Origin: Paenibacillus sp. FSL M7-0420
GTDB taxonomy: Bacteria > Bacillota > Bacilli > Paenibacillales > Paenibacillaceae
Direction: 5' to 3'
Length of the DNA stretch: 64,000 nucleotides
Assembly: GCF_038002345.1 (NCBI RefSeq)
Contig: NZ_JBBOCJ010000001.1
Span: 248,001-312,000 of the forward strand
Shown here: positions 3,138 through 14,194 of the stretch, piece by piece
Layout: the number at the start of each line of letters is the position of its first letter
Numbering within the stretch: the first letter of the stretch is position 1
The notes under the pieces: generated by a model
What the model saw: only the letters and a program-made list of their open reading frames with translations
Told to the model about the DNA's origin: nothing
The model's database searches: none
Program-made: the position numbers and the translations under genes

Positions 3138-4796
3138 ATGATGAAGATTAACAATCCTATTATCCCTGGTATGGCACCAGATCCCTCTATTATTAGAGTG
3201 GATGATGTGTATTATATTGCGACATCCTCGTTCCATTGGAATCCCGGCGTTCAAATTTTCAAATCAACCGATTTAGCCCATTGGACGCTGACAGCCTCCG
3301 TATTAAGTAAAGGTGAAGTGAATTTGAGGGGGACCAATACTCCGGCCGGGATCTGGGCGCCGCATCTATCCTACGATCCTAGGGCGAAACGGTACTGGTT
3401 AGCCTATTCGCATATGTTAAACATGGCAGGCCGTGAATTTAATTCGGATTCCTATGCCATGTGGGCAGAGGATATCCATGGACCTTGGTCGGCCCCCATC
3501 TATCTGACCTCCATTGGTTTCGATCCGGCACTCTTCCATGATGAAGACGGTAAGCACTATGTGTCGATCCTTGAATGGGAGACCCGTGAAGGGTACCAAG
3601 CCCCTGGACATATTGTGATTGCTGAATTTGATTTGAATGAGGGTAAAATGGTTGGGAAGTGGCACCGGGTGACGCAAGGCTTCACCAGCCGCGGTTGTGC
3701 TGAAGCACCGCAGATCTATAAATATAGAGATAGGTATTATCTTTTATTAGCTGCTGGCGGAACTGGTTATGCTCATGGTGTTGAGCTGGGACGTGCGGAG
3801 AATATTTTTGGTCCCTATGAACCGCATCCGTCGGGAGAGCCGATCATCACCTCCTCGCCGCGCCATCTATTTTCACTTGGGAATCCGGATGCCGGGCATT
3901 TTGAGATGTATAATCCAAGTTCAATTATGCAAAAAGCAGGTCATGGCTCATTAGTTCAAACCCAAACAGGCGAATGGTATATTGCTCATCTCATGTCACG
4001 CCCTGTGAAAGGAACGCTAATGAATCCATTAGGCCGTGAAACCTCTATTCAAAAAATGCATTGGACAGAGGATGGCTGGCTGGAAATGAAGGATGGATCG
4101 AATGTAGCGAAAATGGAAGTTGAGGGGATGACAGGTGTTGAATTAGAGACGGGTGGACTCTCTCATGACGTATTTGATGATTTTAATCAGGAGAAATATG
4201 ATCTTCATTTTCTGACTCCGTACCGGGACCAGCAAGCGGCATGGGTGAATACGGTTGAACGTCCGGGTTGCTTACGCATTCATGGAGAGAATTCTTTTTT
4301 CTCGCAGATCCATCCGGCGATTATGGCCACGCGTGCAACTTCCCTTCATTATGAAGTGCAAACCAGGGTGGAATTTCATCCCGATCACTACTCGGAAACG
4401 GCAGGTCTGGGGCTATACTATGATTCGAATAATTGGCTGTACGTTCACTTGACCCACTCCGAATCAGAGGGTACCGTTCTATACGTACTTCAGGCCAAGC
4501 TGGGAGAGCGCATCGAGCTGGTCCACAATTACATTCCAGTCCCTGAAGAGACAGCGGAGCTCAAGCTTATCTATAATGCAGGCATCGCGAGTATCCTTTA
4601 CCGCTTCGGGGATAACGGGGATTGGCAAGCTTTTGTAGAAAATATCGATGTTCTCTATTTGTCGGATGAAGGCGTGAACGGGGAGCCGGGGGAGATTGGC
4701 GGATTTACAGGCTTGTTCAATTTCATTGGTTCCGTGGATGCTCACCAGCATGACTCCTTCGCTGATTTTGACTATTATGGCGTGAAGAATTACTAG
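3138..4796 (+). CDS. Glycoside hydrolase family 43 (beta-xylosidase / arabinofuranosidase type)
   Basis: The protein of 552 residues has a five-bladed GH43 propeller at the N-terminus and a C-terminal concanavalin-like domain of about 200 residues, as in beta-xylosidases of the XynB type. The catalytic residues visible are Asp15 (general base, in APDPS), Asp129 (pKa modulator, in GFDPALF) and Glu189 (general acid, in CAEAPQIY). There is no signal peptide, so it probably acts inside the cell on imported xylo- or arabino-oligosaccharides. The start has GAAGGGAAG seven bases upstream. The divergent AraC-type gene is the likely regulator. Xylosidase versus arabinofuranosidase activity cannot be decided from sequence alone. 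Confidence 0.93.
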   Translation: MMKINNPIIPGMAPDPSIIRVDDVYYIATSSFHWNPGVQIFKSTDLAHWTLTASVLSKGEVNLRGTNTPAGIWAPHLSYDPRAKRYWLAYSHMLNMAGREFNSDSYAMWAEDIHGPWSAPIYLTSIGFDPALFHDEDGKHYVSILEWETREGYQAPGHIVIAEFDLNEGKMVGKWHRVTQGFTSRGCAEAPQIYKYRDRYYLLLAAGGTGYAHGVELGRAENIFGPYEPHPSGEPIITSSPRHLFSLGNPDAGHFEMYNPSSIMQKAGHGSLVQTQTGEWYIAHLMSRPVKGTLMNPLGRETSIQKMHWTEDGWLEMKDGSNVAKMEVEGMTGVELETGGLSHDVFDDFNQEKYDLHFLTPYRDQQAAWVNTVERPGCLRIHGENSFFSQIHPAIMATRATSLHYEVQTRVEFHPDHYSETAGLGLYYDSNNWLYVHLTHSESEGTVLYVLQAKLGERIELVHNYIPVPEETAELKLIYNAGIASILYRFGDNGDWQAFVENIDVLYLSDEGVNGEPGEIGGFTGLFNFIGSVDAHQHDSFADFDYYGVKNY

Positions 4797-5624: not shown

Positions 5625-6080
5625 TCACCCCGCTGAAGGGCGGTGGACCGCAGGCAAGGCTGAATGTGCGGCTGCCATCTGTTCGCGTATTCCTCTAAGC
5701 TGGGCCTTTAGCTCGGGAATGCTGCACTCCAGAATCTGGCTGATGTCGGGGAGGGGGAGCTGGATGCCGTACCATAAGGCACTGGCAACGTGATCATCCC
5801 AGTTAAGCAGCGCAGAAGCATATCGGCTGCGGTCGTGGGTGAGCATGGCACACTGGCGGATGCACTCTCTGTAGGCAGCCGCAGCAGCGCCGTCACCTGA
5901 GAGGCTGCCCTTCAGCCATAGTGGATGGAGTGCTACGAAGGTGGCGATTGCAGCTTGTTCGGCGCGGGCGCCTTGCTCCAGCAGCAGGCAGCTAAGCGCA
6001 TAGACGGGACCGCTATATTGCTGGGTGTAGGGGTTGAATCCGGCAGCGGCTGTTAGTTTGGGCGATAAGGGGTCAGGCAT
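5625..6080 (-). CDS. Small protein resembling a degenerate ECF sigma factor, under c-di-AMP riboswitch control
   Basis: The protein has 151 residues and no membrane segment. Residues about 20-52 (YSGPVYALSCLLL then AEQAAIATFVALHP) resemble sigma-70 region 2 of ECF factors, and about 92-135 (DDHVASALWYG then LPDISQILECSIPELKAQL) resemble region 4 with its helix-turn-helix. Both regions are weak matches and the segment between them is short, so it may not be an active sigma factor. AGGAAGGAAC precedes the ATG. Upstream on the same strand lie an intrinsic terminator (6131-6168) and a ydaO-type riboswitch (6222-6376), so expression should fall when c-di-AMP is high. The sigma similarity is my reading by eye; a plain hypothetical protein is the alternative. 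Confidence 0.7.
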   Translation of the reverse strand: MPDPLSPKLTAAAGFNPYTQQYSGPVYALSCLLLEQGARAEQAAIATFVALHPLWLKGSLSGDGAAAAAYRECIRQCAMLTHDRSRYASALLNWDDHVASALWYGIQLPLPDISQILECSIPELKAQLRGIREQMAAAHSALPAVHRPSAG

Positions 6081-6130
6081 GTGGTCACGTTCCTTCCTGA
6101 ATCTATACTGTGCAGTTCATTCCAGCGCGC

Positions 6131-6168
6131 AAAAAACCGCAGGCAGAGGAGGACCTCTGCCTGCGGTT
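6131..6168 (-). terminator. Riboswitch expression-platform terminator
   Basis: On the minus strand a perfect 15-bp stem (arms 6154-6168 and 6135-6149, 4-base loop) is followed by six T residues. It sits about 50 bases before the ATG at 6080 and directly after the riboswitch aptamer. It fits termination as the control step rather than the end of the propeller gene, which stops more than 450 bases upstream. Confidence 0.88.
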
Positions 6169-6221
6169 GGGTAACAGGCTTAAGACGCCTGGCACAAAAG
6201 CGTGGCGGATCAGGGCTCTCT

Positions 6222-6376
6222 CCTTACGCTTACGAGGTTAGCTGTCGGATTCGGACGGTGAGAGTCGCCCTACCTGCCGGAGACCTGCGCGTGGCATTCT
6301 CCTTCGGATTCACCCCAAGTCGGCCTGACGGCCGGATGGTTCCCCCGTTTTCCACATGACGGAAATTCAGCGTGCA
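6222..6376 (-). promoter_or_regulatory. c-di-AMP riboswitch (ydaO/yuaA type)
   Basis: Read on the minus strand, the segment contains the conserved blocks of the ydaO aptamer in order: ACGGGGGAACC, TTGGGGTGAATCCG, GGTAGGGCGACTCT, CCGAATCCGACAGC and TAACCTCGTAAGCG. The closing helix P1 is visible as ACGCT (6373-6369) with AGCGT (6230-6226). In characterised members, binding of c-di-AMP stops expression by favouring a downstream terminator; that terminator is present here at 6131-6168. The regulated gene is the sigma-like ORF at 5625-6080. The promoter must lie upstream, within about 6377-6620; TTGAAA at about 6413 on the minus strand is a possible -35. Confidence 0.93.
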
Positions 6377-13925: not shown

Positions 13926-14194
13926 CAGGCTGGGGTGTGTGCAGCCCAAATGTATGCGAAAAACAGCATACATTTGGCAAGCTGGGGTGTGCGCAGCCCA
14001 AATGTATGCGGAAAACAGCATACAATGTGCAGGCTGGGGTGTGCGCAGCCCAAATGTATGTGAAAAACAGCATACAATGTGCAGGCTGGGGTGTGCGCAG
14101 CCCCAATGTATGCGAAAAACAGCATACATTGGGCAGGCTGGGGTGCGCGGCCGAGTGTATGCGAAAAACCGTACACAATCCCCTGCCGCCCCAA

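Follow-up and report, generated by a model that had tools for sequence, protein, structure and literature searches.

The window analysed here is a 64-kb stretch (G000:C1:248001-312000) of the 7.67-Mb genome of Paenibacillus sp. FSL M7-0420. On its minus strand, a riboswitch for cyclic di-adenosine monophosphate (c-di-AMP; ydaO/yuaA class) with a terminator platform precedes a conserved small gene, whose product has the predicted two-domain fold of an extracytoplasmic function (ECF) sigma factor but is missing the linker between its two domains as well as several residues usual in region 2 of canonical factors. The aptamer (6382-6213) scores 86.5 bits (E 8.9e-19) with the full covariance model of RF00379, against a cut-off of 38, and covers model positions 1-134. 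It is the sole Rfam match above gathering score in the window and one of six RF00379 matches in the genome. An expression platform separates aptamer and gene, in the window as in relatives: reading the sequence gives a 15-bp terminator stem (6168-6154/6149-6135) with a 4-nt loop (6153-6150) and a U6 tract (6136-6131), 6131-6168 in all. The fold of 6168-6130 reaches -30.7 kcal/mol (z -9.2) and was equalled by none of 200 shuffles; a simple terminator scan did not list this hairpin, its single row lying elsewhere on the plus strand. Fifty bases separate the U-tract from the ATG at 6080 of a 151-codon open reading frame (ORF; 6080-5625), with a likely ribosome-binding site, AGGAAGGA, read at 6091-6098. 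Switch, terminator and ORF had all been placed correctly by an earlier first-pass annotation made from the sequence alone.

On the minus strand a consensus scan returned two promoter-like rows, both lying 5′ of the aptamer: TTTACA-18-TATGAT with 10/12 matches (6452-6423) and TTGAAA-18-GAAAAT with 9/12 (6417-6388). The same scan found no promoter between terminator and ATG in the window that would bypass the switch.

Conservation of the switch and its gene

Of 100 genomes of the genus, 40 encode the sigma-like protein, whose named relatives are Paenibacillus species; RF00379 matches occur in all 100. Conservation of the pair across the genus, a point raised by the first-pass annotation, is borne out by an Rfam scan of 30 gene loci (L010-L039) and the ten remaining gene-bearing genomes. 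A same-strand RF00379 match lies upstream in 28 of the 30 loci and in six of the ten genomes (G079, G044, G038, G058, G057, G043), giving 34 of 40 gene-bearing genomes, with the switch always within 1.3 kb. At L023 (genome G090), one of the two negative loci, a switch does lie on the gene's strand some 6.2 kb upstream, beyond four group II intron matches; at L057 (1210-7542), four such matches separate a riboswitch from gene X, a neighbour described below. A profile search of 295 genomes of the family matched 35, many of them already among the genus genomes. Two members of a different genus, G129 and G236, carry the switch too; G001 does not. Seven matches outside the genus (E 1.9e-6 to 9.2e-4; one, L047, was fetched) are probably ordinary ECF factors. 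We regard both the switch and its pairing with the gene as real with near certainty.

The leader is conserved in its parts as well. All 28 loci that have an aptamer carry TTTACA and TATGAT at a spacing of 17-18, 16-41 bases 5′ of it, and a comparable hairpin was found in 27 of the 28, L017 having none. A bypass promoter was suggested only by a weak 7/12 match in two of 17 scannable short-gap loci (L029, L033). An antiterminator search paired the 3′ strand of P1 with a downstream copy of its 5′ strand, at a mean of 5.5 of 6 pairs over 27 loci against at most 4.3 in shuffles; because the loci are related, this is a hint only. In truncated folds the 5′ arm of the terminator pairs with varied partners, often close to the P1 5′ strand; when the whole leader of the window is folded, the terminator still forms. 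In P. tritici (L017 1501-2136; L008 3821-4453) the terminator is lost and the aptamer ends 9 bases from the start codon, beside the ribosome site, a possible natural shift from transcriptional to translational control.

Median ratios of nonsynonymous to synonymous substitution (dN/dS) in six groups of relatives were 0.24, 0.29, 0.22, 0.21, 0.19 and 0.13, the last two groups being single pairs. In P. piscarius (L009) and in L046 (G043), at 3891-4253, the gene carries an internal deletion (P0026, 100 aa) and the switch is retained.

A sigma-like protein without a linker

Used alone as a query, the 151-aa sequence matched neither Pfam nor PHROGs; NCBIfam offered no sigma family, and no row of the Protein Data Bank (PDB) came in under E 0.36. 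A weak SDR match (NF005403, E 0.027), with 13.9 bits where the cut-off is 254, was discarded. The region 2- and region 4-like segments reported by the first-pass annotation are real, but they become visible only in alignments of relatives. In a profile search SigW was the top sigma row (E 1.3e-6), its two matching stretches being weak singly (0.072 and 0.44). Four ankyrin chains also appeared, one at 1.3 and three ranked after SigW but ahead of every other sigma row (3.1e-4 to 0.0094); they were rejected as repeats, since in all but one of them no single stretch passes by itself. An AlphaFold2 model, structure alignment and hhalign agree on sigma2 and sigma4 domains only, and databases label the relatives 'hypothetical protein' or 'sigma-70 family'. 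The modelled fold is very probably ECF-derived. Together with the profile matches and the conserved pairing, it supports the earlier suggestion of a small, degenerate ECF-type protein behind the switch. None of the three contrary observations named at that time (a missing RF00379 match, a fold unrelated to sigma-70, a bypass promoter) was seen.

What has been lost emerges from a joint alignment of 31 sigma-like proteins with 20 canonical ECF factors. The interdomain linker measures 5-6 residues in all 31, against 29-47 in the canonical set. The region 2.2 Q (19/20 in canonical factors), the E/D next after it (20/20) and the region 2.3 aromatic residue (20/20) are absent from all 31, as is the region 2.4 N (16/20); an earlier D/E position is kept in 8/31 (20/20). 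Two basic positions fall to 5/31 and 2/31, from 18/20 each, and two others, in region 4, are down to 5/31 and 2/31. Regions 2 and 4 also differ in net charge: the canonical means are 3.1 and 3.4, those of the sigma-like proteins 0.6 and 0.5, and the window protein has 0 and -3, respectively. In region 2.2, the Q and the E make contact with the core polymerase, a role for which our literature searches gave no support. The ECF linker occupies the active-site/exit channel of the polymerase, and linker mutants lose core binding to varying extents, as described in the accessible part of PMC8103513. That the protein is an ordinary sigma factor is unlikely.

Neighbouring genes

In many relatives a gene of about 170 aa, X, lies between the terminator and the sigma-like gene (L022-L026, L028, L030, L034, L036-L038; X also at L100-L119), and some add a further gene, W, before X. 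On a tree of 38 members the presence of X changes six times, at least five of these changes being forced by well-supported branches; X has therefore been gained or lost repeatedly while the sigma-like gene remained. At L039 (1483-1923) the sigma-like gene opens with MESR, which is how X begins in near relatives; it looks as though X had been deleted and the sigma-like gene had taken over its start. With a limit of E 0.001, X is matched in 11 of 19 genera and in 81 of the 295 genomes of the family (Paenibacillaceae), some of the loci being near c-di-AMP riboswitches, W and kdpA. Among 20 chosen X loci (L100-L119), seven hold RF00379 (L100, L101, L102, L104, L105, L107, L119), and a profile scan found no sigma-like ORF of at least 90 aa in any; riboswitches are in tandem at L100, L102, L105 and L119. 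A role of X as anti-sigma factor gained no support: its best fold rows are enolase-superfamily proteins, though its model is weak (predicted local distance difference test score 57, no Foldseek E below 0.001). In Pfam, X matched MR_MLE_N (0.003 at best, 2/25 members) and RseC_MucC (0.0067, 1/25), and a PDB profile search with it found nothing. X may be related to the enolase-superfamily capping domain without the barrel, the link being weak.

As read from coordinates, kdpA lies divergently within 3 kb of the sigma-like gene in eight of the 40 genomes (G038, G039, G044, G057, G058, G065, G069, G079). Seven of the eight also match RF00379 on the side facing kdp; in the stretch fetched for G044 none was found. 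KdpA was found in 91 of 100 genomes, so its presence alone tells little; the family (PF03814) is also found in another genus, at L040 (787.6 bits). In the window's genome the sigma-like gene stands alone; kdpA is at C1:3395843, and none of the six RF00379 matches comes within 400 kb of it. A conserved, unnamed gene of about 140 aa, K, lies between a c-di-AMP riboswitch and kdpA at L040 (2158-2577), L048 (6145-6669) and L100 (4919-5341, where kdpA was called by reading the sequence), and K-like proteins follow riboswitches at L104 and L119, with no kdpA in the output for those two loci. Elsewhere in the window, 13926-14169 holds a tandem array of a 52-bp unit in 4.8 copies with 90% matches.

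Interpretation and comparison with known systems

In the kdpFABC switch of B. thuringiensis c-di-AMP promotes termination, and c-di-AMP falls in potassium limitation, as far as the accessible text of PMC6488665 goes. By analogy, transcription here would start upstream of the aptamer and bound c-di-AMP would favour the terminator (OFF), so that the protein would be made by read-through when c-di-AMP drops, as in potassium limitation. A protein that is shaped like an ECF factor but whose contacts with polymerase and DNA are weakened suggests a sigma mimic. Such a protein would not initiate transcription itself and would most likely titrate an anti-sigma factor, freeing a true ECF factor, as PhyR does with NepR. 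That the protein is an anti-sigma decoy seems to us a serious possibility, if somewhat short of an even chance. The whole circuit, in which the riboswitch would set the level of a stand-alone sigma mimic and a PhyR-like partner switch without a response regulator would connect c-di-AMP and potassium to an ECF regulon in Firmicutes, is offered tentatively.

Several observations weigh against this proposal. A region 2.3 F is retained in 19/31 (13/20 in ECF factors), one basic position in 23/31 (11/20), and in region 4 a K, an R and an I in 31/31 and an E/D in 28/31; whole-protein charge is nearly the same (1.8 against 2.1 in canonical factors). The compact pose of the AlphaFold2 model may reflect only the short linker or a habit of the program, the structure-alignment tool itself warns that helical models reach high Z through common arrangement, and other anti-sigma complexes (sigmaE-RseA, AlgU-MucA, SigK) give either a poor fit or one confined to a single domain. 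A scan confined to upstream neighbours (W, X or none) found no anti-sigma family in Pfam, bar the weak RseC_MucC match of a single X. Finally, five of the 40 genomes (G089, G097, G065, G088, G098) have no nearby same-strand switch even at E up to 1, and the switch is therefore not obligatory; in G089, reading the sequence shows the 5′ part of the aptamer gone with its end and the terminator still there.

The same evidence bears on other readings. A working, very small ECF sigma factor with its own regulon at low c-di-AMP would account for the fold and homology, for the relatives that databases call sigma factors and for the invariant region 4 residues, but it would have to work with a linker of 5-6 residues instead of 29-47 and, in all 31 members, without the Q and E/D of region 2.2 or the aromatic residue of region 2.3, when the linker sits in the active-site/exit channel and its mutants are impaired in core binding (PMC8103513, accessible part); we consider it improbable. 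These losses of linker and region 2 residues make the sigma factor role entertained by the first-pass annotation less likely and weaken its alternative, an anti-sigma-like competitor for RNA polymerase, whose anti-sigma element is better reversed: the protein looks like a mimic of sigma to which an anti-sigma factor could bind. A regulator that binds DNA or polymerase through the sigma4-like helix-turn-helix is unlikely, though less so; it could be a repressor, an activator or a flap competitor, and its sigma2-like part would serve as a scaffold or partner domain. The region 4 charge (-3 in the window protein, a mean of 0.5 against 3.4) and the near loss of two basic positions there speak against it. 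The damaged copies, namely the P. piscarius deletion (L009, L046), broken-looking genes in G098 and G001 and a stop within the match in G065, would suit a functionless relic carried in decay behind the switch. We think this very unlikely, given dN/dS of about 0.2 in most groups and the persistence of promoter, aptamer and gene together in 28 loci though X came and went at least five times.

If the anti-sigma decoy is real, it may link potassium signalling with gene control: c-di-AMP would gain a direct hand on transcription via a degenerate sigma protein, and a sigma-mimic system would exist outside Alphaproteobacteria, set by synthesis alone. The locus offers a clear testable signal (potassium, c-di-AMP) and a small protein suited to pull-downs. 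Control by c-di-AMP is mostly known for transporters, osmolyte systems and cell-wall enzymes, and no report of such a switch ahead of a sigma factor turned up in the literature searched.

The riboswitch class is known; its target is an unnamed protein family. With other RF00379 members the window's switch shares a complete aptamer above the curated score and a terminator platform, and it differs in its target, a sigma-like protein where potassium-transport, cell-wall or osmolyte genes are usual. SigW-type ECF factors have the same two-domain sigma2/sigma4 fold and significant profile similarity, but here the linker is missing and conserved region 2 residues are lost. A further comparison is with PhyR of Alphaproteobacteria, whose sigma-like domain, as defined in the accessible part of PMC8103513, is built like an ECF factor while its contacts with core and promoter are degenerate. 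Unlike PhyR, the window protein (151 aa, sigma-like domains only) has no fused receiver domain, no NepR is known here, and control would fall on synthesis, through the riboswitch, instead of on phosphorylation. The B. thuringiensis kdpFABC switch differs in that the window's sigma-like gene stands alone with kdpA distant; the terminator platform is common to both (PMC6488665, accessible part), and eight of the 40 relatives lie divergent to kdpA.
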